Made by a program: the position numbers and the translations under genes
Source: Bacteroidota bacterium
Lineage (GTDB): Bacteria > Bacteroidota > Bacteroidia > Bacteroidales > UBA12077
Assembly (NCBI GenBank): GCA_020049295.1
Contig: JAIFLC010000070.1
Coordinates: forward strand, 1 to 36,181
Length of the DNA: 36,181 bases
Reading direction: 5' to 3'
Notes under the pieces: model-generated
The model's input: only the letters and a program-made list of their open reading frames with translations
The model's database searches: none
What the model was told of the DNA's origin: nothing
Shown here: positions 13,436 through 35,793 of the stretch, in pieces
Numbering within the stretch: the stretch's first letter is position 1
How the letters are laid out: the number at the start of each line of letters is the position of its first letter

Positions 13436-14962
13436 ATGAATACCCTAATAATTACAGGTAATGACCTGAAAATTGAAGATGTTGTTAATGTTGCCCGCAA
13501 TGGACAAAAAGTTGAATTACATCCAGATGCTGTTACAAGAATAAATAAATGCCGTGCAATGTTGGAAAAAAAGGTAGCAGCGCATGAAATAATGTATGGT
13601 GTAAATACAGGAATAGGAGAGTTTTCTGAAGTGGTTTTAAATGATGACCAGGTCCAAGATTTTCAAAAATATTTGATTTATAATCATGCTGCAGGTATTG
13701 GCGATCCTGCTCCAATCGAATATGTTCGTGGTGCTATGCTTGGTCGTATTAACGTTCATGCCCACGGAAATTCAGGTAGTCGTCTTGAGATAACTCAAAC
13801 CTTTGTTGATATGCTCAATAAAGGAGTTACTCCATTTGTTTGTCAAAAAGGTTCAGTTGGTGCCAGTGGTGATTTGGCTCCTATGTCGCAGATTGCTCTT
13901 TTATTAATGGGTGAAGGACAGGCATATTACAAAGGTGAATTACTCGAAGGTAAAGATGCAATGAAAAAAGCAGGTATTCCAATACCAGGCTTGAAAGCTC
14001 GCGATGGATTAGCTGCCATAAATGGTTCAAATGTTTTGACTGCTATGAGTGCCATAATGCTTTTTGATGCAAACAACTTTTTAAAACAGGCTGAAATAGC
14101 AGCTGCTATGTCACTTGAAGCATTAAAAGCAAATATGCGACCTTACGATGTTCGATTGCATAAGGTAAGAGGGTTTAGCGGAGCTATAAGAAGTGCTGCT
14201 GCTATTAACAAAATGGTTGCCGGAGGTGATTTAAAAGAAGGTAAAGTAAAATGCAAAGTTCAAGATGCCTATTCAATGCGTTCAACTCCTCAGGTTATTG
14301 GTGCCGCCCACGATAGTCTTGCTTGGGCTCGCTCACAAGTTGAAATTGAATTAAACGGTGTTGGTGATAACCCAATTTTCTTTCCTGATGAAGGTATTCA
14401 GCTTACAGGAGCTAACTTTCAGGGAACCCCCGTTTCATTACCTATGGATATGGTAGGAGTAGCTATTACAATGGTTTGTGTTATGTCAGAAAGAAGAATG
14501 AACCGACTTAATAATCCGGCACTTAGTGTTGGGTTACCAGCCTTCTTAACAAAAGGTGCAGGTATGTTCTCAGGATTAATGCTTAGTCAGTATACTGCAG
14601 ATATGCAGATTGTTGAGCAACGAATACTTTCAATGCCTGCATCTATTCAATCGATACCTGCTGCTGCTGATCAGGAAGATTTTGTTTCGATGGGTATGAA
14701 TACAGCTATTAAAAATTTCCAGATTATGGATAATGCTTACGGTGTTTTGGGTATTGAAATAATGGCTGCTGCTCAAGCCCTAGATTTTCGTGAATATAAA
14801 TTTGGTTCAGGTGTGACCAAGGCAAAGGAAGTAGTACGTAAACATGTTAAGTTTCTTGATATTGACAGACCATTATATCCAGATCATACAACAATGAAGG
14901 AATTAGTAAAATCTTGCGAAATTCTTCATGAAGTTGAAAAAGCTATTGGAAACCTAGAATAA
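13436..14962 (+). CDS. HAL/PAL-family aromatic amino acid lyase, divergent paralogue
   Basis: Second MIO-type lyase, 508 residues, 259 bases after hutH. The MIO triad is A143-S144-G145 (GSVGASGDLAPM). Catalytic positions are kept: Y54 (YGVNTGIG), H84 (YNHAAGIGDP), N196 (AINGS), Q276, Y279 and R282 (QDAYSMR), F328 and E414. Two neighbours of the active site differ from HutH: GNFHG becomes ANFQG (Q329) and QEDH becomes QEDF (F416). The substrate pocket may therefore differ. The enzyme is expected to be an active ammonia-lyase or aminomutase; histidine remains the default guess because the HAAG block resembles HutH more than TAL/PAL. It is closed by a strong terminator shared with the convergent operon. 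Confidence 0.82.
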   Translation: MNTLIITGNDLKIEDVVNVARNGQKVELHPDAVTRINKCRAMLEKKVAAHEIMYGVNTGIGEFSEVVLNDDQVQDFQKYLIYNHAAGIGDPAPIEYVRGAMLGRINVHAHGNSGSRLEITQTFVDMLNKGVTPFVCQKGSVGASGDLAPMSQIALLLMGEGQAYYKGELLEGKDAMKKAGIPIPGLKARDGLAAINGSNVLTAMSAIMLFDANNFLKQAEIAAAMSLEALKANMRPYDVRLHKVRGFSGAIRSAAAINKMVAGGDLKEGKVKCKVQDAYSMRSTPQVIGAAHDSLAWARSQVEIELNGVGDNPIFFPDEGIQLTGANFQGTPVSLPMDMVGVAITMVCVMSERRMNRLNNPALSVGLPAFLTKGAGMFSGLMLSQYTADMQIVEQRILSMPASIQSIPAAADQEDFVSMGMNTAIKNFQIMDNAYGVLGIEIMAAAQALDFREYKFGSGVTKAKEVVRKHVKFLDIDRPLYPDHTTMKELVKSCEILHEVEKAIGNLE

Positions 14963-16576: not shown

Positions 16577-17530
16577 TTATTTTCTTGTTAATACTTTTTG
16601 TACAGCTTCAACAATATTTTTTGTATCAATTCCATACTTAGCCAATAGATCCTCTGGTTTACCGCTTTCACCAAATTTATCGTTAACAGCAACCATTTCG
16701 ATAGGAGTTGGTAATTCTCTACCTAAAAGTTGAGCAACAGAATCACCTAAGCCACCATTCATGAGATGTTCTTCGGCTGTTACTACTGCCTTGGTTTTTC
16801 TTACCGATGCCAAGATAGCCTCCTCATCGAGTGGTTTAATTGTATGGATATTGATTATTTCTGCGGAAATCCCTTTCTCTTCAAGTATTTGAGCTGCTTC
16901 AATTGATTTCCAAACTAAATGTCCGGTAGCAATTATCGTTACATCAGTACCTTCATTTAAAAGAATAGCTTTACCGATTTCAAATTTTTGATCAACTGGG
17001 GTGAAATTAGGAACAGCAGGTCTTCCAAATCGCAAATAAACAGGTCCGACATGATCGGCAATAGCTATAGTAGCTGCTTTTGTTTGATTATAATCGCAAG
17101 GATTAATAACTACCATTCCGGGTAACATTTTCATCAAACCAATATCTTCCATTATCTGATGTGTTGCACCATCTTCACCCAAAGTAAGTCCGGCATGTGA
17201 TGCACAAATTTTTACGTTTTTACCCGAATAAGCCACAGATTGTCGAACCTGGTCGTATACACGCCCAGTAGCAAAATTTGCAAAAGTGCCAGCAAACGGA
17301 ATTTTGCCACCAATAGTTAATCCGGCAGCAACACCAATCATATTAGCTTCGGCGATACCACACTGATAAAAACGATCAGGAAATTCTTTAATAAAAGCAT
17401 CCATTTTAAGTGATCCAACTAAATCTGCACACAAGGCAACTACATTTTTGTTTTTTCTGCCAAGTTCAAGTAATCCTGCTCCAAAACCTGATCGTGTATC
17501 TTTTTTCTCGGTATATTCGAATTTTTTCAT
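16577..17530 (-). CDS. Transketolase, C-terminal subunit
   Basis: 317 residues covering the pyrimidine-binding (Pyr) and C-terminal domains of transketolase, the second half of a split enzyme of the non-oxidative pentose phosphate pathway. Seen: the catalytic glutamate in [17 protein letters not shown] (E61), [20 protein letters not shown], the substrate-side histidines in [15 protein letters not shown] (H112, H124), and the C-terminal block ending in [15 protein letters not shown]. It should pair with the N-terminal subunit encoded at 19401-20246. In most genomes with split transketolase the two halves are adjacent; here two other genes lie between them. A C-half of a DXS- or PDH-type enzyme is less likely, because the length and motifs match transketolase. 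Confidence 0.93.
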
Positions 17531-17538
17531 TATTTAAA

Positions 17539-18921
17539 TTATAAAAGAATTATTGTATTTGATGATCCTGATTTTATAGTAAATCGTTTTTTTACGGTAT
17601 AAATTGATTCCTTAATGTTTTTTGGCTTGTAAATAATTCTGTAATCTCCGGGCTGCAATATTAATGAAGGACGCGTATTTTGTGGTTCAAAGTTATAAAT
17701 CCATTTTAGAGTATCGCTAGTCTCTTGGTACAAACTTGCAAATCCTGACGATGGAATTGATACATTTGCAATACCTGGTTTTGGTATTTCTATTTTGGTT
17801 GTAGTGCTCTGATCAATTCTAACATCTTTTAAAATCAATCGGGGTAGGGTAAGTACTTCCAGATCATAATTGCCAACAATGTACTTTTCCGTTTGAAAAC
17901 AGTTTTGAATATTTAGTATTTCCGATTTGCCCGGTTCCCTTACGAGAATCTTTAAATCCTTATATTGATTTGATCCTGGGCTAAAAACATATAACGAACC
18001 TTGTGGTGCATCGATGCCAATCATGTTATGTTTACCTTCGGTAAGCAAAATATCTTTTTTAATTACAGCAGGCAATGTTTGTACAACGATATTATAGGTT
18101 GCCAAAGGATCAATAAATAATGTGTCGGGATTACCCTTATAATTTATGCTATGGACAAAATTATATCTAACTTTCCCCGAATAACTATCGAAAAAGGTCA
18201 TGTTTACATCGGTTTCGGTAGGGTTACCATAAATGTCAAGAAGGTTTACCTGTGCTGTAGTAGAATTTAATGCCCGGGTAATCACAATCTCTAACACTTC
18301 ACTAAACTTCTGTTCATTTGGGGTATTATAAAACTGACCAACGCATTCGAAGGTTTTCTCAAAATTAGGATCTATACCTATTCCGATGATAAATGGTTTT
18401 AAAATAATACCTTTCTTTTGAAGGTTCTGCGAAGCTTGACATGGATCTCCATCGCAAGCCTCGACACCATCAGTTATCAGAATAATAATATTTCGGCAAT
18501 TGTCGCATGGAGGGAAATCATTTTCTGCAAGAGTTAACGAATTTGCTATAGGAGTAGTTCCACGAGGAATCAGAAATCTTAATTTCTGTCTTATTTCTCC
18601 AGCATTATTATCCTTAAATGGTACTTCGAGCTTTGTATCGTTGCAATCTTGAGGCGGAACATCTTTCTGGTGCCCATAAACACGAAGAGCCAGTTTAACA
18701 TTGTCTATTTTTTCGAGACTGTCGATTAACTGTGTAAGGTATTTTCGGGCAATGTTTATTTTTTTATCACTCTCCCAGTTGCCGTGCATACTTAGTGATG
18801 CATCAAAAATGAATAAAATATGATTTTCAGGAGGAGCCGGTTTTTCTTTAGTTTGCGACCATCCCTGAAAGATTAATCCACAGTTTAAGAGGATTATTAA
18901 TAGAGCTTTAATTAGTTTCAA
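17539..18921 (-). CDS. Exported von Willebrand factor A domain protein
   Basis: 460 residues with a signal peptide (about 1-23, ending GWSQ). A vWA domain spans about 33-210 with a complete MIDAS metal site: D40-A-S42-L-S44, T123 (RGTTPIANSL) and D151 (LITDGVEACDGDPC). Cysteines are frequent around it (C93, C139, C142, C156, C161), which could form disulfides in the periplasm. The remaining 250 residues are beta-rich without a recognised domain, possibly Ig-like or SpaA-like modules. No C-terminal membrane helix or T9SS signal was seen. vWA domains bind protein partners through the metal; the partner here is unknown. It lies eight bases before the transketolase C-half, so the two are co-transcribed although they act in different compartments. 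Confidence 0.82.
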   Translation of the reverse strand: MKLIKALLIILLNCGLIFQGWSQTKEKPAPPENHILFIFDASLSMHGNWESDKKINIARKYLTQLIDSLEKIDNVKLALRVYGHQKDVPPQDCNDTKLEVPFKDNNAGEIRQKLRFLIPRGTTPIANSLTLAENDFPPCDNCRNIIILITDGVEACDGDPCQASQNLQKKGIILKPFIIGIGIDPNFEKTFECVGQFYNTPNEQKFSEVLEIVITRALNSTTAQVNLLDIYGNPTETDVNMTFFDSYSGKVRYNFVHSINYKGNPDTLFIDPLATYNIVVQTLPAVIKKDILLTEGKHNMIGIDAPQGSLYVFSPGSNQYKDLKILVREPGKSEILNIQNCFQTEKYIVGNYDLEVLTLPRLILKDVRIDQSTTTKIEIPKPGIANVSIPSSGFASLYQETSDTLKWIYNFEPQNTRPSLILQPGDYRIIYKPKNIKESIYTVKKRFTIKSGSSNTIILL

Positions 18922-18970
18922 AAGAAGTAGGTTGTATTCAGATTATTATTAACAACTATTTATGAGTAAC

Positions 18971-19369
18971 TTACTCTGTAGTCTTCATTCGTTCGTAATC
19001 TTCCTTTTTTATTAAACCCAGAATTACCAATTCTGCTGTTGCATAATTAGTAGCTAATGGAATATTATGTAAGTTACATGATTCAAGCAATGTCTGAATA
19101 TCTTCGTGATGTCCTTGCTTAATAAGTGGATCGCGTAAAAAGATTACTATATCAACTTCTTTTCGCTTAATCATGTCGGTAATTTCAAGATATCCACCAG
19201 ATTTTCCCGGGCTTAGATGTTGTACCTTAATACCTTGTGATTCAACAAATTCAGCAGTTCTTCCTGTTGCAATTAAGTTTACCCCGTAAATCCATTCTCT
19301 CCTGTCGTTAAGAAATTGAACCATTTCAGGTTTCTTAATGTCATGCGCAATAATTACAATGTTTTTCAT
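18971..19369 (-). CDS. Methylglyoxal-synthase-fold protein lacking the catalytic Asp
   Basis: 132 residues, clearly of the MGS-like fold, which also occurs in MgsA, the CarB allosteric domain and PurH. Compared by eye with E. coli MgsA (numbering recalled): H19 is H9 (IIAHD), K23 is K13, T45/T48 are T35/T38 (ATGRT), D91 is D80 (FLRDPL), H98 is H87 and D101 is D90. The catalytic base D71 in GPMGGD is replaced by tyrosine (KSGGY, Y60), and the spacing to D80 is exactly conserved, so the substitution is not an alignment slip. True methylglyoxal synthase activity from dihydroxyacetone phosphate is therefore doubtful. A ligand-binding or regulatory role is possible. It lies between the halves of transketolase, 31 bases after the N-half. 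Confidence 0.78.
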   Translation of the reverse strand: MKNIVIIAHDIKKPEMVQFLNDRREWIYGVNLIATGRTAEFVESQGIKVQHLSPGKSGGYLEITDMIKRKEVDIVIFLRDPLIKQGHHEDIQTLLESCNLHNIPLATNYATAELVILGLIKKEDYERMKTTE

Positions 19370-19400
19370 ATCCTTAATTAATATTTAATACTATTCTTTT

Positions 19401-20246
19401 TTAATAATCACCCAAGGTTTCCTGCAATTGGCCGAGTGCTTTCTGCAATTGTTCATCATTTGGAGCTGAGCCATGCCATTTATGTGTTCCCATCATAAAA
19501 TCAACACCCATTCCCATTTCTGTTTTCATTAAAATAACAATTGGCTTTTGTTTTCCTGTTAACGTTTTTGCATGATTAATTGTTTTAATGACATCTTCCA
19601 TATCGTTACCATTCATATGTAGAACAAGCCATCCAAAACTTTCCCATTTTGCAGCAAGGTTACCTAACGACATAACTTCATCCACAGGTCCATCAATCTG
19701 TTTTCCATTATAATCGACTGTTGAAATAATATTATCTATTTTATGATGTGCAGCAAACATTGCCGCTTCCCAGTTTTGGCCTTCCTGAAGTTCACCATCA
19801 CCGTGCAGGGTATATATAATTTTAGGGTCGTTATTTAATTTTTTTGATAAGGCTGCACCACAAGCTACTGATAATCCCTGACCGAGAGATCCAGATGCTA
19901 CTCGTATTCCCGGTAATCCTTCTTTGGTAGTTGGATGCCCTTGTAATCTTGAATTTAAAACCCTGAAGGTTTTTAGTTCGTCAATGGCAAAATATCCTGA
20001 TCGTGCTAATACACTATACCACAAAGCCGACAAGTGACCATTTGAAAGAAAAAATAAATCTTGTTGGGTTCCATCCATCTCGAATTTTTTTGGATTGTGA
20101 TCCATAATTTCAAAATACAAGGCGGTTAAAAAATCTGCACAACCTAATGAACCTCCTGGGTGACCTGAGTTCTGAGCATGAACCATGCGTACTATGTCGC
20201 GACGAACTTGTGAAGCAATTGTTTTGAGTTTTTGAATATCTGCCAT
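19401..20246 (-). CDS. Transketolase, N-terminal subunit
   Basis: 281 residues forming the thiamine-diphosphate (PP) domain of transketolase; it moves two-carbon units between sugar phosphates together with the C-half at 16577-17530. Motifs: NSGHPGGSLGCADFL (H29), LSNGHLSALWY (H71), QGHP (H104), GSLGQGLSVACG, and the ThDP/Mg2+ motif GDGELQEG with the Asn at its end in STVDYNGKQIDG (D149, N180). It is the first gene of the minus-strand run, divergent from ychF across a 210-base A/T-rich gap, so the operon promoter should lie within about 20250-20400. I could not find an exact TAnnTTTG match there on the minus strand. Confidence 0.94.
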   Translation of the reverse strand: MADIQKLKTIASQVRRDIVRMVHAQNSGHPGGSLGCADFLTALYFEIMDHNPKKFEMDGTQQDLFFLSNGHLSALWYSVLARSGYFAIDELKTFRVLNSRLQGHPTTKEGLPGIRVASGSLGQGLSVACGAALSKKLNNDPKIIYTLHGDGELQEGQNWEAAMFAAHHKIDNIISTVDYNGKQIDGPVDEVMSLGNLAAKWESFGWLVLHMNGNDMEDVIKTINHAKTLTGKQKPIVILMKTEMGMGVDFMMGTHKWHGSAPNDEQLQKALGQLQETLGDY

Positions 20247-20456: not shown

Positions 20457-21554
20457 ATGGGACTGCAGTGCGGAATTATTGGAATAACAAATGTTGGAAA
20501 ATCGACTCTATTCAATTGTATGTCAAGTACCAAAGTTGAAACGACCACCTTTGCTTTTAGCTCAAGTAAATCAAATATTGGTATTATAAATGTGCCTGAT
20601 AGCAGGCTTTTTGAGTTGGAAAAACTTCAACCTACAGAAAAAGTAGTTCCGGCAACTGTCGAAATTGTTGATATTCCCGGGCTAACAAAAGGAGCAAATC
20701 AGGGTGAGGGTGTAGGGAATAAATTTCTTGCCGATATTCGAAATACTGATGCCCTTATTCATGTTTTGAGATGCTTTGATGATCCAAATCTCCCACACGT
20801 GGATGGTTCTGTTAATCCGGTTCGCGATATTGAAACGATTGATCTTGAATTACAAGTAAAAGATTTGGAATCGGTTGATAAAAAAATTACACGGTTAGAG
20901 AAAATGGTGAAAATTGGTGATAAGGATGCAAAGCATGGTGTTGATTTCTTAACTGGCTTAAAAGATCACCTCGAACAAATGAAGAATGTTCGTGATTACC
21001 ATATCTCCGATAATGATAAAAAGTATCTTGATGATCTTTTCCTGCTTACTGCTAAACCCATAATTTTTGTTTGCAATGTTGATGATAAATCAGCGATAAA
21101 TGGAAATAAATATGTCGAGAATGTAAAAGAGGCATTAAAAAATCAGAAAACGGAAATTCTTGTAATTGCAGGTAAGCTCGAAGCTGAAATCGCCGATCTG
21201 GAGGACATGAATGACAGAAAAGTATTTCTTGAAGATGCAGGACTTGCGGAGCCTGGTGTTAATAAGCTAATTCGAAGTGCTTATTCACTTTTAAATTTGC
21301 TGTCATTTTTTACTGTCGGTCCAAAAGAAATAAAAGCATGGACAATTAAAAAGGGAATGACTGCACCACAGGCTTCAGGTGCAATACACAGTGACCTTGA
21401 ACGTGGTTTTATTCGTGCTGAAGTAATGAAATATAATGATTTTATTACACTCGGCACTGAAAATAAGGTTAAAGAAGCCGGAAAATTTCATGTCGAAGGT
21501 AAGAATTACATTGTAGAAGATGGTGATATTATGCATATTAGGTTTAATGTATAA
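20457..21554 (+). CDS. ychF: YchF/OLA1-family P-loop NTPase
   Basis: 365-residue cytoplasmic Obg-related NTPase; family members usually hydrolyse ATP, bind ribosomes and respond to oxidative stress. Motifs: P-loop GITNVGKST (usually GLPNVGKST), switch region DIPGLTKGANQGEGVGNKFL, HVLRCFDDPN, and the C-terminal TGS domain with the closing block KNYIVEDGDIMHIRF. Compared with typical YchF as I recall it, the block after the P-loop is divergent: the common NFPFCTIEPNVG is here TFAFSSSKSNIG, and the switch DIAGL is DIPGL. This may be a lineage variant or a second paralogue. It is probably monocistronic. Only a weak A/T-only hairpin (21561-21584) follows it. Confidence 0.9.
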   Translation: MGLQCGIIGITNVGKSTLFNCMSSTKVETTTFAFSSSKSNIGIINVPDSRLFELEKLQPTEKVVPATVEIVDIPGLTKGANQGEGVGNKFLADIRNTDALIHVLRCFDDPNLPHVDGSVNPVRDIETIDLELQVKDLESVDKKITRLEKMVKIGDKDAKHGVDFLTGLKDHLEQMKNVRDYHISDNDKKYLDDLFLLTAKPIIFVCNVDDKSAINGNKYVENVKEALKNQKTEILVIAGKLEAEIADLEDMNDRKVFLEDAGLAEPGVNKLIRSAYSLLNLLSFFTVGPKEIKAWTIKKGMTAPQASGAIHSDLERGFIRAEVMKYNDFITLGTENKVKEAGKFHVEGKNYIVEDGDIMHIRFNV

Positions 21555-21981: not shown

Positions 21982-24900
21982 ATGAAGAAAATTTACACTG
22001 TATTATTTTTTATTTTGTTTCTGGCGAATAGTTTGTATAGTCAAATTTTATCAGAAAATTTTAATACAACAACTCCTGACCAGAATATTAACATTATTGG
22101 ATGGAGTAATTATGCAGAAAAAGGAACAGCCGTTTTCCAAGGTAAATATGATGCAACCGAGGACAACTATTATGCGCAAATGAGTGCTTTTGGCTCAGGT
22201 GAAGATAGTAATTTTGTTTGGCTGGTTACACCACCGGTTTATTTAACCCCTGGGAATGTTTTAAATTTTAGAAGCAAATCAGGCAATACAGATTTAGATG
22301 TATTCAGTTTATGGATTTCCACCAATTATGCAGGTAATGTTGAAACAGCAAGTTGGACAGAACTAACATTTACAAAGCCAACAGATGATGGAGCCTCTTT
22401 TGGAGATTGGCAAAATTCAGGTTCTATTAATCTTGATGGATATACCGGTTCAAATGTAAATATTGCTTTTAAATATATGGGTAATGATACTATTGCAACA
22501 GTATGGCAAATTGATGATGTTATTATTATAAACAAACCAATTGTTGCAGTAAGTCCTGCCTTTTTTGCTGAAAAGGTGATTGCAGGTAACTTAAGTACAA
22601 AATCTATTACCATCTCGAATATTGGTGGATTAGTATTAAGCTGGGATAGAGATGAAAAATCATTTGAAAAAATAAATTATGCAGATTGGAATTTGGAAGA
22701 AAACCAATTGAAATTTGATGAAGATGTTTTAATTACTAGAAAGAATTCCCAAGGTATTTTTAATATTGCACAAGAAGGATCTTATAATAGCCCTGTTTCG
22801 CCACTTGGAACAGAGTGGTCGTATGGATTAACAGCAGATTTAGCTCCTGAAGATTATGAGGTTTGGGTTGAGGCAATTAATTGGAATCCTCCTAGTCAGG
22901 TTGGAGAGAACCTGTCAATGCATATTATTGATAAAGACATCTATTTTGATATTGTTTTCAAATCATGGACAGATAATGCTAATGGAGGTGGATTTAGTTT
23001 AGATTATAAACCTGTATTTCCTCATTGGTTAAGTGTTTCATCAGAAAAAGGAGATACAGAATCTGGTCAGTCCACAACAATTAATGTTACATTCGATGCA
23101 ACAAACTTAGTTGCTGGAACCTATTATTCAACAATAAGTTTCTTTACAAACGATCCGTTGAATCCTTGTATTTATATCCCTGTAGAGCTAATAGTAACAG
23201 GTGAACCCGAAATTAATGTAACTCCAACAACTTATAATTACAATGATGTTTTTGTTAATGGTAGTGCTAGTGTTGATTTTGAAATTGAAAATTTAGGTAC
23301 AGATACACTTAATATAAGTAGTATTAGTTTAAGCGAAGGTGCTTTTGTGCCAGATATGACATCATTTTTGGTTCTCCCAGGTGAATCACAAATTGTTGAG
23401 GTTAGTTTTAATCCAACTGCCGTACAGGCATATACTGGTGTTTTATCAATTTTAAGTAATGATGCAGATGAAGATTCTATTGCTGTTATACTTACGGGCC
23501 AAGGTATTACAGGGCCGGCAATTGAAATTGATTCAGCTTCTTTCAGTGTTTCAGTTACAGGCTGTAACCAAACAGAAAACAGATCATTAAAAATAACAAA
23601 TACAGGGGGACAACCATTAAACTGGGAAATTATAACAGGCTTGGGTTATCCTAGAAATAAATCAGTTCTGGTAATTCAGGAAACAGATGAATGGGGTGTT
23701 TATATGGATAATTTTGTCTTGACAAATTTTGGAATTACACCAACAGTAATAAGCTCTTCGCAAATAACATCGACTGATTTTAAACAGTTTGATCTGATTA
23801 TAACTACCGGCAGTCAAAGTAGTACATACTACAGTAACATATCAGCCAATGTTGCAAAATTTGAAGATTTTGTTGATGGTGGTGGTGTTGTTCAATATCA
23901 GGCTGCTACACAAGGCGACAATGTTAGTATTGTTGGAGGCGTAAATATTATAAATGGAAATCATGAAAACGTTAATACAAACTTATTACCTACGCATCCT
24001 ATTACTGATGGTTTACCTATCAATTTAGAAGGTAATTCAGCTAATCATGGTTATCTCACTAATCTACCTATAGATGCTGTAATTATTACCGAAACCCAAT
24101 TTTCGCGTGTGCCAACTACCGTTGAGTATAATTATGGTGAAGGCAAAGTAATTGCTACAGGGATGACATGGGGCTATTTATATACCAATAGTTACAACTC
24201 AGGTCCGATGCTTTATAATGCCACTAATTATTCACTTTCATTAATTGGAGGTTTTCCAATATGGCTTACAGCATCTTCATTAACTGGCTCAGTTGAAGCA
24301 GGAAATAATGTAACTGTTGATTTTCAGTTTAGTTCCGCTGAATTAGATGAAGGTATTTATACGGGTAGTTTAAAGCTTAAAAATAATAGTATCGAGGATC
24401 CTAATATAGATATTCCACTCACATTTACGGTAAATACAGTTCCAATTATTGAATTATCAGCTTCCACAATAGATTTTAAAAATATTGCGGTAGATGCACA
24501 GGGAAACAAAATATTAAACATTCTAAATTCAGGCTGTGATACACTTATTATTACAAATATCACAAGTTCATTACCCGAATTTGGGTTTGATGTTATCCCT
24601 CCTCTTAGCATTGTTCCAAATGACACAATCGATATTCGACTTACTTTTAGTCCTATAGCTCTTGAAACATACAATGGAACATTAACGATTACAAATAACG
24701 ATACCGAAAAGATAGTGAATTTAACAGGGATTGGCAGCGAAGCTCCTGTAATTGAGGTTTCTCCGGATACATTTTCTGTGACAATGAATGGATGCGATGT
24801 AGTTCAGACCTATCCCGTTAAAATTTCAAATAAAACAGGGTTGTCTAATCTAAATTATGAAATTGTTGAAGAACAGGATGGATCTATTGTTACTCTATTT

Positions 24901-27900
24901 GAAGGGGCTATTGTTCCGGGTGATTCAATAGTAAACAATATTGAATTAGATGCAACAGGTTTAAATTCTGGCTTATATTCGAATGAATTAGTAATTAACT
25001 CGAATGATACAATCAATCCAGTAATCACATTGCCTTATGCACTAGTCGTAAATGGATTACCTGATATCGTTTTATCATTATCGAATTTGGATTTTGGAAG
25101 TATTCTGGTAAATGATGATTCTACTAAACTATTTACTGTTAAAAACAATGGTTGTGATACGCTTAAAGTAACTAATATTACAAGTTCATTACCTCAATTT
25201 ACAATTGATACCACGAATTTCCCAGTTTTACCAGGTGATAGTCTCAATGTAAATGTAAAATTTATTCCAACAGATTCAGTAACATATAATGGTGTACTTA
25301 CTATAGTTAATAACGATGCAGAACAAACTATTGACCTTACAGGTATAGGATTGGCCTCTGCTATAGCAGAAGTTGTTCCTGATACGTTGGAATTAATTAT
25401 TGCTGGTTGTGATGTAATCCAGAACGAAACCATTACAGTAAATAATAAGGGTACGGCTGTTCTTAATTGGGAGATTGCTACTTACCAGCAGGACCAAATT
25501 TCTACTACAATGGCTGCAGGAAACAGCCAAAATGGGAATATGTTTGATATTTATGCGAAACAGACCATAAATATTGAGAGTTTTGAAATAAATACAACTG
25601 ATCTAGGAAGTTATGGTATTGAAGTTTATTATAAGGTTGGTACTTATGTTGGATCAGAAACTGCTGCTGGTGATTGGACACTCTTTGGAACAAAAACAGT
25701 ATCAGCACTTGGTACAGGGAACTATACATTAGTTGATTTTGGAGATATATTAACCGTTCCTCAGGGCCAAACCTATGGTATTTATATCACAACAAATGAT
25801 GGTAATTCTATTAATTATACTAATGGAGCCAATACATATTCTGATGATAATATTACTATTACAACGGGTGTTGGTAAATCCTATCCTTTTGGTGGTACCT
25901 ATACTCCTAGAACATGGAATGGACGAATTACTTATTCAATGGGTGTTGAATGGGCTGATTTTACTCCAGCAATTGGAACTATTGATCCAGGAAGTTCTAC
26001 AAATGTAAATGTAGAAATTAATACTACTGGATTAGTTGAGGGTGAATACAATGGATCATTCCAGGTTAATTCTAACGATCCTGCAAATCCATCGATCAAT
26101 GTGCCAATAAAATTAGAAATTCAAGGTATCCCTCAGATTGAACTATCTGTTGATTCAATTAATTTTGGTGATGTATTTAAGGGTGATAAAAAACTCCAAA
26201 CTATATCTGTTATAAATACAGGATGTGATACACTTTTTATATCTGATATCACAAATACAATTCTCGAATTTTCAGTTGATAATATTTTATTTGAAGTTTT
26301 ACCAAAAGATACTTTTGATTTGCAATTTACATTTGCCCCATCAGCTATAGCTGCTTACACCGATACATTTACAATTATTAACGATGATGAAGAAATAAAA
26401 ATTCCTGTTAAAGGAAATGGTACAGGTGCTCCTGAAATAACAATTTCTCCATTAAGTTTCGATGTAACTGCAAATGGTTGTGATGTAGTTCAAACCTTGC
26501 CATTAACTATTTATAATACTGCTGGTTTGGCAGATTTAACATATAACATTGCAGAAAGCAATGATTATTACTTTGTAAGTAATATAAATTATGCAAATAC
26601 TGGCGAAAATACAACGCATGTTTTTACAGATCTAAGCACTAATACATACGAGATCACTCTCGAAGTTACATTAAATGGCGATTATACAAGTTCGAGTGAA
26701 TATGCAGATTTATATGTTGATGGTGACTTTATTGGAAGAATCAATGAAACAACTTTTCCTGATGGAACAGATTTTGTCAGAAGTTATACTTTTAATGGTG
26801 TTCAAGTGGAACAATGGGTTGCTGACAACAATATTATTGTTGTAGTTGATAATAGTGATGAAGTTGATCCAGGATATGGTCTTGACTTTAATAAAGTTGA
26901 ATTTTATGGCAGTTCCTATAAAGCTTTTACTTCAGGAACCATTACTCCTGGTGGAAACAAAGCAGAAGATATAGAGTTTGATGCTACAGGTTTAAATACA
27001 GGAATTTATGCGTATGAGTTTATGGTGTATTCAAACGATCCTGTTAATCCATCCATTACAGTTCCTTATACTTTAACGGTTAATGGTACACCCGAAATAA
27101 GTTTATCTTCATCTGTTATAGATTTTGGTGAAGCTTATAACGGATCAACAACCTCAAGAACTTTTACTGTTGCTAACAATGGATGTGATACACTTAAAAT
27201 AACTAATATTGTTTGCGATATAACTGATTATTACCCTGATATTACAAGTCTTGAAATACTTCCTGGAGAAACTGCAGATATTGTGATTACTTTTGCGCCT
27301 TCAATATTGGGCACAATTGCAGCTGAGCTTACAATCTCAAACAATGATGAGGAAAAAATAGTAAATCTTACTGGTGAGTCAATAACTCCTGGAATACCTT
27401 TGATTCAATTAAATATGAGTCAAATTGATTTTGGGGATATTTATTTAGGACAAATTTCGGATGAGCAGGAATATATTGTTTCAGGTTCGGGATTAACAGA
27501 AAACATTAGTATTTCGGTACCATACGGATTCCAAATATCTACATCTAGTGGTTCTGGATTTACAAATTCATTATCGCTACTTCATGTTGGAGGCAATGTT
27601 TCTGCAACTACTATTTATGTTCGATTTATTCCTACTGCTAAGAGAGTTTACAATGAATCGATTGTGCATATAAGTACTGGTGCAACTCAAAAAAGTATTT
27701 CTATAACAGGAGAAGGGATCGTTCCTCCAGAAATTATCACATCTAAACAAAAACTTGCTTTTGAGGATGTTTATAATGGGTTTATGTCTGCAGAGCAATC
27801 TTATACAATTTCTGCTGATGGATTAAGTGATGATATTATTGTTTCAGCACCTACTGGTTTTGTAATATCAAAAAGCTCTGGTAGTGGTTTTAACAACATA

Positions 27901-28782
27901 CTTAATTTTACTCCTGTGAATGGAATTGTTTCTACAACAACAATATACGTAAAATTTGCACCAGTTTCAGTATTAACTTATTTAGCTAATATTGACCATT
28001 CAAGTACAGGAGCTACTAAAAGATTTGTTGAGGTTTCAGGAACTTCATTGGAAAATTATTTAGTAACCTTTAATGTTGGTAACGGAACAAGTTCTATAGA
28101 CGGAGCGGTTATTACTATTGATGGACACAACATTACAACTGCGGGTGGTGGTATTGCTAGTATTAATCTGCTTGTAGGAAATTATAACTTTGAAGTTACT
28201 TCTACTGGATACGATAATTATTCTGGCGAAGTTAATGTTGTTAACCAAAATGTTACACAAAATATTATTCTATCATTAACTACTTATGATGTTCAGTTTA
28301 TAGTTAGTTCAGGTTTAAATCCAGTTGTTGGAGCAACTATAGCATTAACAGGATATGGGACTCAGTACACGAATGCATCGGGCTTGGCAACTTTCACCGA
28401 TGTAGCACCTGCAACTGGAATAGCATATACTGTTGTAGCAGCAGGATACAATAATGCAACAGGAAATATAACAGTAGTTAATGCTAATGTTTCAGAAAAT
28501 GTTTCAATGTCACTTAATACTTCTGTCGATGAAGAAATTCATCTTCAGAATAAAGTGGAAGCTTTTCCAAATCCATTTACAAATAGTATAACAATTAAGA
28601 GTACAATTGGTGTCAATCAGGTTGTTATAACAAATATGGTTGGTCAAAAAGTTATGGAGATCGATTTGAATGGTTCTGAATCTAAAACAATTCAAACTAC
28701 TAATTTAGCAAATGGAATTTATCTTGTTAAATTCAGTACTAGCGATAATAAAGTTATCATACAAAAAATGGTAAAAGAGTAA
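21982..28782 (+). CDS. Giant modular secreted protein with T9SS type A sorting domain
   Basis: 2266 residues. Signal peptide about 1-21 (SLYSQ), then a choice-of-anchor/cleaved-adhesin-like jelly roll (about 25-185). Two module types then alternate. Type A has a strand with GCDVVQT followed by DATGLNTGIY, SNDPxNPSITVPY and a closing VNG. Type B is ASH/choice-of-anchor-D-like (IDFGxxxxG, NxGCDTLxITNI, VLPGDS, YNGxLTIxNND, LTGxG) at about 408-512, 821-918, 1027-1123, 1385-1482 and 1704-1803. Unrelated domains are inserted in most A modules, including a ThuA-like one (about 555-745). Two tandem ASH-like copies (about 1808-2022), two carboxypeptidase-regulatory-like Ig folds (about 2025-2172) and a type A sorting domain (about 2189-2266, AFPNPF to LANGIYLVKF) finish it. 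The export route is outer-membrane T9SS; adhesion or matrix function is inferred. No catalytic triad was seen. Confidence 0.88.
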   Translation: MKKIYTVLFFILFLANSLYSQILSENFNTTTPDQNINIIGWSNYAEKGTAVFQGKYDATEDNYYAQMSAFGSGEDSNFVWLVTPPVYLTPGNVLNFRSKSGNTDLDVFSLWISTNYAGNVETASWTELTFTKPTDDGASFGDWQNSGSINLDGYTGSNVNIAFKYMGNDTIATVWQIDDVIIINKPIVAVSPAFFAEKVIAGNLSTKSITISNIGGLVLSWDRDEKSFEKINYADWNLEENQLKFDEDVLITRKNSQGIFNIAQEGSYNSPVSPLGTEWSYGLTADLAPEDYEVWVEAINWNPPSQVGENLSMHIIDKDIYFDIVFKSWTDNANGGGFSLDYKPVFPHWLSVSSEKGDTESGQSTTINVTFDATNLVAGTYYSTISFFTNDPLNPCIYIPVELIVTGEPEINVTPTTYNYNDVFVNGSASVDFEIENLGTDTLNISSISLSEGAFVPDMTSFLVLPGESQIVEVSFNPTAVQAYTGVLSILSNDADEDSIAVILTGQGITGPAIEIDSASFSVSVTGCNQTENRSLKITNTGGQPLNWEIITGLGYPRNKSVLVIQETDEWGVYMDNFVLTNFGITPTVISSSQITSTDFKQFDLIITTGSQSSTYYSNISANVAKFEDFVDGGGVVQYQAATQGDNVSIVGGVNIINGNHENVNTNLLPTHPITDGLPINLEGNSANHGYLTNLPIDAVIITETQFSRVPTTVEYNYGEGKVIATGMTWGYLYTNSYNSGPMLYNATNYSLSLIGGFPIWLTASSLTGSVEAGNNVTVDFQFSSAELDEGIYTGSLKLKNNSIEDPNIDIPLTFTVNTVPIIELSASTIDFKNIAVDAQGNKILNILNSGCDTLIITNITSSLPEFGFDVIPPLSIVPNDTIDIRLTFSPIALETYNGTLTITNNDTEKIVNLTGIGSEAPVIEVSPDTFSVTMNGCDVVQTYPVKISNKTGLSNLNYEIVEEQDGSIVTLFEGAIVPGDSIVNNIELDATGLNSGLYSNELVINSNDTINPVITLPYALVVNGLPDIVLSLSNLDFGSILVNDDSTKLFTVKNNGCDTLKVTNITSSLPQFTIDTTNFPVLPGDSLNVNVKFIPTDSVTYNGVLTIVNNDAEQTIDLTGIGLASAIAEVVPDTLELIIAGCDVIQNETITVNNKGTAVLNWEIATYQQDQISTTMAAGNSQNGNMFDIYAKQTINIESFEINTTDLGSYGIEVYYKVGTYVGSETAAGDWTLFGTKTVSALGTGNYTLVDFGDILTVPQGQTYGIYITTNDGNSINYTNGANTYSDDNITITTGVGKSYPFGGTYTPRTWNGRITYSMGVEWADFTPAIGTIDPGSSTNVNVEINTTGLVEGEYNGSFQVNSNDPANPSINVPIKLEIQGIPQIELSVDSINFGDVFKGDKKLQTISVINTGCDTLFISDITNTILEFSVDNILFEVLPKDTFDLQFTFAPSAIAAYTDTFTIINDDEEIKIPVKGNGTGAPEITISPLSFDVTANGCDVVQTLPLTIYNTAGLADLTYNIAESNDYYFVSNINYANTGENTTHVFTDLSTNTYEITLEVTLNGDYTSSSEYADLYVDGDFIGRINETTFPDGTDFVRSYTFNGVQVEQWVADNNIIVVVDNSDEVDPGYGLDFNKVEFYGSSYKAFTSGTITPGGNKAEDIEFDATGLNTGIYAYEFMVYSNDPVNPSITVPYTLTVNGTPEISLSSSVIDFGEAYNGSTTSRTFTVANNGCDTLKITNIVCDITDYYPDITSLEILPGETADIVITFAPSILGTIAAELTISNNDEEKIVNLTGESITPGIPLIQLNMSQIDFGDIYLGQISDEQEYIVSGSGLTENISISVPYGFQISTSSGSGFTNSLSLLHVGGNVSATTIYVRFIPTAKRVYNESIVHISTGATQKSISITGEGIVPPEIITSKQKLAFEDVYNGFMSAEQSYTISADGLSDDIIVSAPTGFVISKSSGSGFNNILNFTPVNGIVSTTTIYVKFAPVSVLTYLANIDHSSTGATKRFVEVSGTSLENYLVTFNVGNGTSSIDGAVITIDGHNITTAGGGIASINLLVGNYNFEVTSTGYDNYSGEVNVVNQNVTQNIILSLTTYDVQFIVSSGLNPVVGATIALTGYGTQYTNASGLATFTDVAPATGIAYTVVAAGYNNATGNITVVNANVSENVSMSLNTSVDEEIHLQNKVEAFPNPFTNSITIKSTIGVNQVVITNMVGQKVMEIDLNGSESKTIQTTNLANGIYLVKFSTSDNKVIIQKMVKE

Positions 28783-29017: not shown

Positions 29018-30694
29018 ATGATTATTAATTACAAAACACGAATTTGGCTTTTTCTTCTTTTTATTTTTCAATATCAATTAGTAGGAGCTCAGAACCATCC
29101 CGAAAGTTTTAGAAATAAAACTCCAAAATTGGTTGTGGGCATTGTAATTGAAGAGATGCGTTACGAAATGTTGCTGCGCTATTGGGATTCATTTGGGAAT
29201 GACGGTTTTAGAAAGATTATTGATAATGGTAGCTTATGTACGAATGCAAAGTTTAATTATTTAATTACTCAAAATAGCGTAGGCCATGCTACGATAGTTA
29301 CAGGAACAAATCCTGCGTATCATGGAATAATAGCCAATACATGGTTTAACAGGTTAACAGATAAAGTAGTTTATAGTACCGATGATACTAAGTTTAGTAT
29401 TGTAAATGGAAATATATCTTTAAGTAATTATTCCCCTCAAAACATAATGGTATCGACTATTGGTGATGAAATAAAGATTGCTTATAACGAAAAATCGAAA
29501 GTGATTTCAGTTGCTTTAAATCCTATTTCATCGGTTATCTCTGGTGGGCGCTTTGCTGATTATGCTTTTTGGTTTAATGATAATGATGGATCATTCATAA
29601 CAGGCAGTTATTACTCTGATTCGTTACCAGATTGGGCTAAGGAATTTAACCAGAAAAATTTTCAGGATATTTATTTGAATAAATCATGGTCAACCATAAA
29701 TTCTCTTTCTGAAAATTACAAAGCTAGTTTGCCCGATAATTGTGCTTTTGAGATTGGATTTAAAAATTACCGCAATACTTTTCCATATGAATTGTCATTT
29801 CTTAAATCAAAATCAGGGAATTACAAATATTTAAAATATACACCCTATGGCAATACGTATACAAAGGATTTTGCTGCTTCAGTAATAATAGGAGAGAGCC
29901 TTGGTAAAGATGAATTTCCCGATTTTTTATCTGTAAGTTTTTCAGCAACAAATTATGTCGGAGAACTTTTCGGTCCCAGGTCTGTTGAGATGGAAGATAC
30001 GTATTTAAGGTTAGATAAAGACATAGCGCATTTTATTGATTTTCTTGATCAGGAAATTGGAATTGAGAATGTATTAATTTATATAACATCTGATAGAGGT
30101 GTTTCTGATGTCCCTGATTATCTTATATCAAAAAAGCAAAATGCTGGAGTCTTTGATGGACAGCAATGTGTAACATTATTGAATAGCTACCTAAGTATTT
30201 TATATAGTGAAGGTGAATGGATTAAAATGTACTATTCACGACAGTTTTATATAAACCAAAAACTACTTGATCAAACCGGTATTCTTGCGAGTGAAATTCA
30301 ATCAAGAATTGCCGATTTTGTTGTTCAGTATGCTGGTGTGGCAAATGCAATACCTGCATCAGTATTATTATCTACAAATTTCGAATCAGGAATAAATAAA
30401 AAGATTCAAAATAGTTTTAACCAAAAACGATCTGGAGATGTATTAGTCAATTTAGAACCAGGATGGATTGAGAAAAATGGAAATATTGCTGCTTCAGGCT
30501 CTGCTTATAACTATGATACACACGTTCCTCTTATTTGGTATGGCAGCAATATATCAAAATCGCGCATTGACTATGAAATAGATATGACTGATATTGCACC
30601 AACAATTTCATGGATTCTTAAAATTAACTCTCCGAATTCATCAACGGGTAAACCTATTGTAGAGATAATACATAAGAATGGAAAAATTCAATAA
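29018..30694 (+). CDS. PafA-family alkaline phosphatase homologue, probably catalytically dead
   Basis: 558 residues with a signal peptide (about 1-24, LVGAQ), collinear with Bacteroidota PafA phosphatases over its whole length (KLVVGIV to MTDIAPTISWILK). Positions compared with Elizabethkingia PafA, recalled from memory: D38 is E45 (VIEEMR), nucleophile T79 is N85 (QNSVGH), K162 is N168 and R164 is I170 (ALNPISS instead of SLKDRAS), D305 is N312 and H309 is E316 (TNYVGE instead of TDYVGH), and H353 is R360 (SDRG instead of ADHG). N107, D359 and H502 are retained. Nearly every metal ligand and the nucleophile are lost while the fold signatures stay, so it should be periplasmic or surface-exposed and non-hydrolytic, perhaps a binding protein. 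It is encoded 235 bases after the giant T9SS gene, behind that gene's terminator. Confidence 0.82.
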   Translation: MIINYKTRIWLFLLFIFQYQLVGAQNHPESFRNKTPKLVVGIVIEEMRYEMLLRYWDSFGNDGFRKIIDNGSLCTNAKFNYLITQNSVGHATIVTGTNPAYHGIIANTWFNRLTDKVVYSTDDTKFSIVNGNISLSNYSPQNIMVSTIGDEIKIAYNEKSKVISVALNPISSVISGGRFADYAFWFNDNDGSFITGSYYSDSLPDWAKEFNQKNFQDIYLNKSWSTINSLSENYKASLPDNCAFEIGFKNYRNTFPYELSFLKSKSGNYKYLKYTPYGNTYTKDFAASVIIGESLGKDEFPDFLSVSFSATNYVGELFGPRSVEMEDTYLRLDKDIAHFIDFLDQEIGIENVLIYITSDRGVSDVPDYLISKKQNAGVFDGQQCVTLLNSYLSILYSEGEWIKMYYSRQFYINQKLLDQTGILASEIQSRIADFVVQYAGVANAIPASVLLSTNFESGINKKIQNSFNQKRSGDVLVNLEPGWIEKNGNIAASGSAYNYDTHVPLIWYGSNISKSRIDYEIDMTDIAPTISWILKINSPNSSTGKPIVEIIHKNGKIQ

Positions 30695-33796: not shown

Positions 33797-34528
33797 TTAA
33801 AGAGAGTGTGTTATTTGTACCAACTTTTTAAGGATTTTTGGATTTTGTTCTATAGCTGTTCCAATTACTACGATATCAGCGCCTGCTTTTACTGTCTGTT
33901 CAATATCATTTTCTGTTTTTATTCCGCCACCAACAATTAATGGAATATTAATATTTTTCTTAACTCCGCTTATTAAATCAAAAGTAATATGATTTTTAGC
34001 CCCACTGCCAGCTTCAAGATAAATGAGTTTAAGACCAAGCATTTCGCCAGCCATGGCTGTTGCAATCGCAATGTCAGTTTTTTCGGCAGGTATTGGACGG
34101 GTATTGCTCATATATTCCACTGAAGTTGATTTTCCCCCTTCAACTAAAACATAACCTGTTGGAAGGACTTCTAACCCACTTCTCTTAATATAAGCTGATG
34201 CAATTACGTGATTCCCGATTAACAGATCAGGATTTCGCCCCGAAATTAATGATAAAAGCAAAATGCCATCTGCATTAGGTGTAATTTGCAACGGACTTCC
34301 GGGAAATAATAACAAAGGTATTTTTGTGTTATTCTTTATAAGAGTTGCAGAATGATCGATATGATTGTTCAGCAAACTACCTCCGATTAAGATCAAATCT
34401 ACATGTGAATCGTTGGCATTATTAACAACCTTCAATAACGATTTTTCTGAGTGATTATCAGGATCAACTAATAATGCAAATAGTTTTTTGCCGTTTTTTA
34501 TTTTTTTTAGGATATCGTTATAAATCAT
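33797..34528 (-). CDS. Geranylgeranylglyceryl/heptaprenylglyceryl phosphate synthase
   Basis: 243-residue TIM-barrel prenyltransferase of the PcrB/GGGPS family, joining sn-glycerol-1-phosphate to a polyprenyl diphosphate to form an ether lipid precursor. Motifs: FALLVDPDNH (D22, D24, the Mg2+/diphosphate side), LIGGSLL, LLFPGSP, the glycerol-1-phosphate pocket YLEAGSGA (170-177), VGGGI (199-203) and GTAIEQN. The family is best known from archaea (ether lipids) and Bacillus PcrB, but a Bacteroidota group has also been characterised. The product chain length cannot be told from sequence. It is the last gene of the gldE-gldD-PPTase operon, 23 bases after the PPTase gene. Confidence 0.9.
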   Translation of the reverse strand: MIYNDILKKIKNGKKLFALLVDPDNHSEKSLLKVVNNANDSHVDLILIGGSLLNNHIDHSATLIKNNTKIPLLLFPGSPLQITPNADGILLLSLISGRNPDLLIGNHVIASAYIKRSGLEVLPTGYVLVEGGKSTSVEYMSNTRPIPAEKTDIAIATAMAGEMLGLKLIYLEAGSGAKNHITFDLISGVKKNINIPLIVGGGIKTENDIEQTVKAGADIVVIGTAIEQNPKILKKLVQITHSL

Positions 34529-34551
34529 TATTACAATAGTTTAATAAAAAA

Positions 34552-35184
34552 CTACTTATAACACCAAACTATGGCGTAATTCTTAAGTGTAAAGTAGTTT
34601 AAAGTAAATTTTTCGTTCATGTAACTATTATTTACCACTCCAATAATTAATCCTTTATCTTTTGGTTTAAAGGGTTCAATCTTAAGGTTTGTAACGAAAT
34701 TAATATCAACTTTATCACAAATCTTATATAAAGCTTCTTTTGCGCACCAATGCAAATACAGGTGATATATTTCTTGCGTTTTATCTATAGAATCAATCTC
34801 TTCGGGACGCATAAATTTTTCGGCAATACGCAACACTTTATCCGTCATAAATTCAAGGTCGAGACCAACTCTGCGTTTTTTATTAATAAGTATTGATGTT
34901 AGGTTTTTGGAGTGAGAAATGCTTATGTTATGCGAATTGTTATGAAGATATGGCTTTCGTTCGGGCCCATAAACAATTCTGGAATCTTTATCAGTTAATG
35001 AGTTTAATAAAACACGAACACTTAGCCATTCTAATTTTCGTTGATGATTTTTAAAACTATCAAGACGTTCGATGTCTTTATCATCAAGGGTTACCATTGA
35101 CCGCAAATTTTCAAAATCTTCGGTAATTTCCCAAATTCCTAATTTTCCATCTTCATTAAACGATTCATTCAATATTATAGCCAT
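34552..35184 (-). CDS. 4'-phosphopantetheinyl transferase superfamily protein
   Basis: 210 residues of the Sfp/Gsp-like transferase superfamily, which moves phosphopantetheine from CoA to a serine of acyl or peptidyl carrier proteins. Motifs in order: YGPERKPYL, ISISHSKN (H91), the Mg2+-binding VGLDLEFM (D109, E111) and HWCAKEALYKI (E150, K153). The length is in the Sfp-type range rather than the short AcpS type. It lies 12 bases after gldD, an order I recall from several Bacteroidota genomes. The target carrier protein is not encoded here. Confidence 0.88.
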   Translation of the reverse strand: MAIILNESFNEDGKLGIWEITEDFENLRSMVTLDDKDIERLDSFKNHQRKLEWLSVRVLLNSLTDKDSRIVYGPERKPYLHNNSHNISISHSKNLTSILINKKRRVGLDLEFMTDKVLRIAEKFMRPEEIDSIDKTQEIYHLYLHWCAKEALYKICDKVDINFVTNLKIEPFKPKDKGLIIGVVNNSYMNEKFTLNYFTLKNYAIVWCYK

Positions 35185-35196
35185 AGTTTAACTATA

Positions 35197-35793
35197 TTAT
35201 TTCCATTCAAACGATTCGATCATAATAATAATATCATCCTTAATAAATCGAATAACCGGTGCTAATGAGTCTTTGTTTGGCTCAACGCTAAAATATAAAG
35301 CTCCTCTTACATAATGTTTAACACTATCGGTAACATAGAATTGCACCGATGAAGCAGCATTTCCCTCAATCTCATATAAGATTCCATAAATTTTACGATC
35401 GGGTCTTATAAATACTTGCTCATGGATCGCATCGGCCTTAATTGAATGTTTATATGCAAGTTTTCTTGAATCTTCTAGTATTTGTCCAAGATTGTTGTCC
35501 ACATTTTTATAACTAATATGCAGTCGACCGCCAATTTTTTTGAAATCCATATTAATCCAGCATGGTTCAGTGTTATTGTCAGTATCAAAAAGAATCGTTG
35601 CATAAACTGGATAATCGAATGAATAAGGACAATCTGAAACAAACTTTTGATATTCTTTTTGAGGCAGATCGATTCTGAAATATCCTCTGGGCTTGGGAGT
35701 AGTATTATCTCGGCAACTATTAAGTATTAAAAACAACAAAATAGATACAATAACAATAACAATAGGATATTGTGAAATACTACTTCTATACAT
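35197..35793 (-). CDS. gldD: Gliding motility lipoprotein GldD
   Basis: 198 residues. The N-terminal membrane segment ends in a lipobox-like LNSC (C27), so it is probably a lipoprotein. The mature start TPKPRGYFRIDLPQKEY is the hallmark of GldD, and the rest (CPYSFDYPVYA, the PCWINMDFKK block, and the C-terminal FIKDDIIIMIESFEWK) agrees with it. GldD is required for gliding in Flavobacterium johnsoniae; its molecular role is not settled, and it also occurs in non-gliding Bacteroidota. The gene follows gldE by 17 bases and precedes the PPTase gene by 12, so all are probably on one transcript. Confidence 0.92.
   Translation of the reverse strand: MYRSSISQYPIVIVIVSILLFLILNSCRDNTTPKPRGYFRIDLPQKEYQKFVSDCPYSFDYPVYATILFDTDNNTEPCWINMDFKKIGGRLHISYKNVDNNLGQILEDSRKLAYKHSIKADAIHEQVFIRPDRKIYGILYEIEGNAASSVQFYVTDSVKHYVRGALYFSVEPNKDSLAPVIRFIKDDIIIMIESFEWK

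Follow-up and report, generated by a model that had tools for sequence, protein, structure and literature searches.

The window, i.e., the whole 36,181-nucleotide stretch of contig JAIFLC010000070.1 that was analysed here, contains a complete open reading frame of 558 aa (29018-30694, + strand), with an ATG start and without an internal stop, which encodes a homologue of the PafA-type alkaline phosphatases. The gene, its predicted signal peptide, and the neighbours that serve as syntenic markers are the following:

29018..30694, + strand: putative PafA-like pseudophosphatase gene, 558 aa (ORF, phmmer, Pfam, NCBIfam, pairwise alignment)
29018..29092, + strand: predicted Sec-type signal peptide, residues about 1-25 (by eye from the sequence)
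20457..21554, + strand: ychF, upstream syntenic marker (neighbourhood comparison, Pfam)
33797..35793, - strand: GGGP synthase (PcrB family), phosphopantetheinyl transferase (PPTase), and gldD, downstream syntenic markers (neighbourhood comparison, Pfam)

The homology with PafA runs from end to end, as the initial annotation had proposed. A phmmer search against the PDB chains returned PafA (5tj3; E 3.3e-98, spanning residues 34-552), the pairwise alignment with EmPafA (5tj3) gave 171 identical positions of 516 (33%), and the alkaline phosphatase superfamily model PF01663 was passed with 109.4 bits against a cut-off of 23. The PafA equivalog model NF042991 was not passed, with 568.2 bits against a curated cut-off of 650. 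This cut-off is no clean divider, given that three degenerate proteins of the order (from genomes G199, G114, and G269) exceed it, as alkaline phosphatase. A Pfam scan of the protein up to E 1 returned no T9SS sorting domain (Por_Secre_tail), and a PHROGs search returned no match. An AlphaFold model built from 19 sequences (mean pLDDT 56, pTM 0.53) is too poor for surface mapping, and a structure search with this model placed 5tj3 first. The signal peptide, which was spotted by eye, suggests export to the periplasm.

The genes of the locus were named by Pfam, except for the vWA and sigma factor genes, which were named by eye. Genomes of the genus usually carry, in this order, a sigma factor gene, the transketolase C half, vWA, an MGS-like gene, the transketolase N half, ychF, in some cases crcB, and the PafA-like gene, followed downstream by an antiporter, GGGP synthase, PPTase, and gldD. 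The split of the transketolase (window 16577-20246, - strand; C half of 317 aa, N half of 281 aa), with the vWA and MGS-like genes between its halves, is genus-wide, and a single transketolase gene of 680-690 aa lies near the same place in L059, L069, L074, and L097. Farther upstream, the window carries tandem aromatic amino acid lyase genes of about 500 aa each (11671-13176 and 13436-14962, + strand; PF00221, 620 and 530 bits).

The conserved neighbourhood which the initial annotation had proposed to look for was found in many genomes. By reading of 151 stretches, ychF precedes the gene in 30 cases outside the genus, where an M14 peptidase often lies in between, and GGGP synthase, PPTase, and gldD lie downstream in many stretches outside the genus; many others are without any of these markers, some of them through contig ends. 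Among the neighbours in these 151 stretches, no partner proved to be conserved across the whole subfamily. The upstream neighbour in the window (21982-28782, + strand) is a T9SS-exported protein of 2266 aa with repeated Hydin/ASH-type Ig domains and a Por_Secre_tail, which, among the stretches compared, adjoins the PafA-like gene in the window genome only; the 151 stretches yielded no full homologue of it and one partial 58-bit match in an M14 protein (L178). The earlier suggestion that the PafA-like protein is the partner of this neighbour thus finds no backing, given that the neighbour is not conserved and the PafA-like protein is without a sorting domain.

The ten catalytic residues of PafA are taken here to be D38, T79, N100, K162, R164, D305, H309, D352, H353, and H486, of which D38, D305, H309, D352, H353, and H486 are presumably the zinc ligands and T79 the nucleophile, with N100, K162, and R164 as the others. 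This numbering was anchored by the mutant 5too (T79S, N100A, K162A, and R164A according to its title), which differs from 5tj3 at exactly the four expected places. The window protein has the following residues at these positions:

29150..29152, + strand: E45 at zinc ligand D38 (pairwise alignment)
29273..29275, + strand: N86 at nucleophile T79 (pairwise alignment)
29336..29338, + strand: N107 at N100, retained (pairwise alignment)
29519..29527, + strand: N168 and I170 at K162 and R164 (pairwise alignment)
29951..29965, + strand: N312 and E316 at zinc ligands D305 and H309 (pairwise alignment)
30092..30097, + strand: D359 (retained) and R360 at zinc ligands D352 and H353 (pairwise alignment)
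30494..30496, + strand: S493 at zinc ligand H486 (multiple alignments)

Two of the ten residues are therefore retained (N100 and D352), i.e., one of the six zinc ligands (D359) and one of the set formed by T79, N100, K162, and R164. The H486 column falls on S493 in the multiple alignments and on G494 in the pairwise alignment, with no His nearby. In this region, the intact orthologue L099, which is identical to the window protein at 240 of 546 positions, has SATNHNSPYAYDTH against NIAASGSAYNYDTH, gap-free. H502 is the His of YDTH, a residue that EmPafA has in addition to H486. Given that H486 corresponds to S493 and not to H502, five of the six zinc ligands are lost, together with the nucleophile and the K/R pair. 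The ten readings given in the initial annotation are thus upheld at eight sites and corrected at T79 (N86, not N85) and at H486 (S493, not H502), and its claim that almost all the catalytic residues are replaced becomes stronger after the latter correction, with eight of the ten gone. The alignment with PafA did not relocate the canonical ligands elsewhere in the protein.

This loss is concentrated at the catalytic sites. Among the 38 columns with one letter in at least 98% of 48 intact PafA rows, the window protein keeps 27 of the 29 non-catalytic ones against one of the nine catalytic ones (nine, as N100 falls short of the 98% cut), and the loss at the catalytic columns is therefore beyond chance. 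The same contrast was obtained in 60 degenerate rows, where the canonical letter is kept at a rate of 0.24 at the nine catalytic columns versus 0.89 at the 29 others (Mann-Whitney p 1e-5).

The gene was found in all 20 genomes of the genus, including the window's own, with the same inactivated pattern. In the sequence of sites given above, the 20 rows read E, N, D/N, N, V/I, N/K/H/G, E/D/Q, D, R, and S. E38, N79, N162, V/I164, D352, and R353 are common to all 20, and S486 to 19 of 19, given that G003 is cut off before the H486 position and the other 19 rows are full-length; these site readings cover all 20 rows, including L106 and L107, which an earlier 17-row genus set was without. Each genome of the genus has one PafA-like locus, except for extra fragments in G003 and G014. 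Within the genus, the gene is under purifying selection, with a dN/dS of 0.06-0.10 in the four pairs of lowest dS, all from one close cluster (L039-L042), on which the estimate rests, as saturation is nearly reached in the majority of the other pairs (mean pS 0.68). Seven neighbouring genes have dN/dS values from 0 to 0.21 in the four lowest-dS pairs. The dN/dS comparison and the substitutions common to the whole genus both bear out the earlier claim of an intact, non-catalytic frame under selection. A role as decoy or regulator of an active paralogue was also considered and is rejected for the genus, given that no second, canonical PafA was found in its 20 genomes (six of them less than 85% complete), which makes a decoy for an active twin unlikely there.

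At the level of the order, 183 of 247 genomes have a match to the PafA model with an E-value of at most 1e-3, 152 have a match below E 1e-30, and 15 lie above the NF042991 cut-off, where the proteins read by site are intact in 12 cases and degenerate in the three named above. The order count comprises 139 rows from 134 genomes, of which 121 have degenerate copies only, five have both kinds (the intact-looking copy of one of them, G031, being truncated), and eight have intact copies only. The initial annotation had suggested looking for a clade with a shared loss, and a degenerate copy is seen in 126 of the 134 scored genomes, and in 55 of the 59 families having scored rows; a further 14 rows left out of the count, ten of them from the genus (G001, G002, G003, G006, G010, G011, and G016-G019), are all degenerate. 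Outside the order, the sample comprised the top 30 matches, 20 from the middle of the ranking, and, in a second step, 20 from the weak end of the strong matches, with 17 listed matches above the cut-off left out of the scoring. The copies were intact in 47 of 47 scored genomes; of 20 additional weak matches, 18 were intact and two were truncated without ligand loss in the remaining part, so that ligand loss was seen in none of 67 scored genomes. Weak similarity is not the cause of the loss, given that, outside the order, matches scoring about 300 bits are intact, and inside it relatives scoring 500-600 bits are not. The distribution of retained zinc ligands has two peaks, with 0, 1, 2, 3, 4, 5, and 6 ligands in 6, 84, 37, 11, 3, 1, and 63 of 205 rows, a set that includes EmPafA, and the window protein twice; 141 rows keep four or fewer, and the single five-ligand row is the truncated L094. 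Comparison of these sequences establishes a PafA subfamily within the order, found at one locus in many genomes, most of whose members are without the two-zinc residues while the gene and the predicted fold are retained.

A few members of the subfamily are still intact. For example, the intact copy of G198 is preceded by ychF and an M14 gene, and that of G179 is followed by an S8 peptidase, GGGP synthase, PPTase, and gldD, while the intact copies of G089 and G181 are preceded by M14 and crcB, and by crcB, respectively. The M14 peptidase of G198 (L250) comes as three frame pieces of 237, 256, and 479 aa, for which a broken gene or assembly errors are possible. Five intact orthologues of the order are 44-46% identical to the window protein. 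The intact copies at the ychF/GGGP locus look like orthologues of the degenerate ones, rather than the canonical PafA of the phylum, and catalysis would therefore have been lost within the subfamily.

The number of losses was approached with a careful tree, built with the catalytic columns removed, in which a 66-row clade of 60 degenerate and six intact rows is set apart, with 100/100 support, from five canonical PafA rows. The window protein lies within a 52-row group that is all degenerate (89/95), the degenerate L124 is sister to the intact L114 (100/94), and seven further degenerate rows are mixed with five intact ones (94/86). The 60 degenerate rows form one group in 0% of 200 bootstrap trees, and the AU test for a single clade gave p 0.067 in the careful tree and p 0.53 in a quick tree, where the likelihood was better for one clade; a clade of the 59 degenerate rows without L124 was rejected (p 0.003). 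In a wide FastTree tree of 146 rows, dereplicated at 66%, a branch at 99 separates the 43 canonical intact rows from all others. If there was no regain of catalysis, the shape of the careful tree implies at least two losses, and probably three or more. Catalysis was thus probably lost more than once within the subfamily, with mixed evidence on a single origin.

The degenerate members also share residues that are uncommon in PafA. Twelve residues are conserved in at least 90% of the degenerate rows and in less than 60% of intact PafA, and 11 of these fall within residues 365-515, a range picked after the residues were seen, which makes its p-value descriptive:

30152..30541, + strand: C-terminal stretch, residues 379-508, with 11 of the 12 subfamily-conserved residues (F379, Y391, Y396, W401, Y411, Q428, F434, G440, G482, W483, Y508; column conservation)

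The five intact orthologues carry 11-12 of the twelve, and the mean score is 8.8 in the lnb-secA branch (see below) and 4.2 in the 43 canonical rows, four of which reach 8-11. This pattern is thus not exclusive to the subfamily and may be of ancestral origin. In a split-half test, the residues picked from half of the degenerate rows were kept at 88% in the other half, at 94% in the intact orthologues, at 56% in the lnb-secA branch, and at 42% in the unused canonical rows. Such a distribution is as expected if a non-catalytic property of the C-terminal part preceded the loss of catalysis; alternatively, the twelve residues, which are mostly aromatic, could reflect the packing of the subfamily.

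Given the loss across the clade and the purifying selection, the initial annotation's reading of a conserved pseudophosphatase is well sustained, with its export to the periplasm resting on the signal peptide seen by eye. The PafA-like protein would no longer hydrolyse phosphate esters, and that it is a pseudoenzyme, without PafA-type catalysis and with a selected function, can be held with high confidence. It may bind another molecule, most likely an envelope protein, via the conserved residues at about 379-508, although its role as a protein-binding scaffold acting through the C-terminal part is put forward more tentatively. The second, non-catalytic role probably came first, which would have made catalysis dispensable, given that the C-terminal part is already present in the intact orthologues of the same locus. 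Taken as a whole, the explanation of a periplasmic pseudoenzyme that binds another molecule through its C-terminal part, in an older second role, stands at an even balance of probability.

The rival that survives best comes from a divergent branch in which the gene lies between lnb and secA, and where the pseudophosphatase might hold or regulate Lnb or its substrates, as an accessory of lipoprotein maturation or of Sec export. Lnb is described in the excerpt of PMC13103446 as adding the third acyl chain in Bacteroidota, and the Pfam names also served as a basis. A gene of the Lnb family (lipoprotein N-acyltransferase) lies upstream in 17 of the 151 stretches, and secA downstream in 18, with Pfam confirmation on one example each, and one 925-aa frame of genome G065 (L091, 7140-9917, - strand) combines Lnb_N, 5TMH_Lnb, and a degenerate PafA-like domain. 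In the 247 order genomes, both proteins are found in 107, the PafA-like protein only in 45, Lnb only in 14, and neither in 81 (by family, 50 of 65 versus 7 of 44), but these counts ignore shared ancestry, which may explain them. Furthermore, no Lnb match was found in the window's own genome (78.6% complete), nor in its nearest relative, G002, and given that the latter is listed as 100% complete, Lnb is not a required partner in the genus. Of the 20 genus genomes, 13 have Lnb and 18 have Lnt, and Lnb was not seen as a neighbour of the gene there. It is unlikely, if worth stating, that the pseudophosphatases of the whole order are an unrecognised non-catalytic periplasmic subunit working with Lnb in lipoprotein maturation and Sec export, a role which the window's branch would keep from a separate locus.

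The initial annotation had proposed a phosphate-ester or glycan receptor, in which the emptied pocket would bind a phosphorylated or sugar ligand without hydrolysis. E45, N86, N168, D359, and R360 are invariant in the 20 genus rows, and S493 in 19, but many other columns are likewise invariant there, and T79, K162, and R164 have been replaced. Across the 60 degenerate rows, the ten catalytic columns have entropies of 1.5-3.7 bits (median column, 1.99), with seven of the ten more variable than the median and the D38, N100, and D352 columns somewhat below it. The receptor is thus unsupported and rather improbable, though less clearly so within the genus.

A re-tooled enzyme or a structural metal site is doubtful to a slightly greater degree. 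The acids at positions 38, 100, 162, and 352, which occur in 49, 33, 27, and 40 of the 60 degenerate rows, might form a new single-metal site, and 41 of these rows have at least three acids among 38, 100, 162, 305, and 352. On the other hand, no column is invariant among these positions, those at 38 and 352 go back to PafA, and the window protein has acids at E45 and D359 only of the five.

Just as doubtful is a role linked to T9SS, in which the PafA-like protein would help the T9SS-exported M14 peptidase, or T9SS cargo generally, to cross the periplasm. In other families, an M14 peptidase is found at the PafA-like locus, often upstream, in 26 of the 151 stretches, and seven of ten scanned M14 proteins pass the Por_Secre_tail cut-off, with that of L097 just below it and two showing none; the L058 M14 peptidase is likewise just below. 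In addition, gldD lies downstream in many PafA-like loci, and SprA is present in 144 of the 152 genomes with the PafA-like protein. SprA is, however, equally common without this protein (91 of 95; 235 of the 247 order genomes in total), no M14 peptidase adjoins the gene in the window's genus, and 8 of the 12 SprA-less order genomes keep the PafA-like protein, although the five of these read by site all fall outside the window's 66-row clade.

Finally, a decaying gene on its way to loss would account for the missing catalytic residues, but this is contradicted by the full-length frames, the retention across the order, and the occurrence of the same inactivated form in all 20 genomes of the genus, with dN/dS at 0.06-0.10 in the lowest-dS pairs, which together leave it hardly any probability.

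PafA is regarded as a source of constitutive phosphatase activity in Bacteroidetes. In the order sampled here, most PafA-family genes would be unable to encode PafA-type phosphatases, and counts made without a check of the residues may therefore be inflated there. A 2020 study puts, in its excerpt, the phylum-wide share of genomes with PafA genes at 78.7% (PMC8115612), and a 2022 survey dropped, according to its excerpt, every sequence with a key-residue change before tree building (PMC8812569). Sequences of the kind removed by that survey appear to include a coherent, selected family. The titles and abstract openings of the literature among the matches listed describe no such clade. PafA itself was already known, and what is new here, and well supported by the site readings, is a PafA pseudoenzyme subfamily across most of the order families examined. 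The intact, partly lost, and fully lost forms at one locus provide a natural series for studies of the passage from enzyme to non-enzyme, and two leads into envelope biogenesis are offered.

Among the known systems, the closest is PafA (NF042991; 5tj3), to which the window protein is homologous over its full length, but from which it differs in keeping two of the ten catalytic residues, in scoring below the 650 cut-off, and in its subfamily-specific C-terminal residues. PhoK/SPAP (3q3q, 5xwi) belongs to the same superfamily (E 2e-35) but is more distant than PafA, and is an alkaline phosphatase according to the PDB title. By analogy only, YejM/PbgA of the enterobacteria also has a periplasmic hydrolase-like domain with a role in the envelope; it is reported in the abstract of PMC7576196 to be a magnesium phosphatase whose active site is intact and, unlike the window protein, it is an inner membrane protein.
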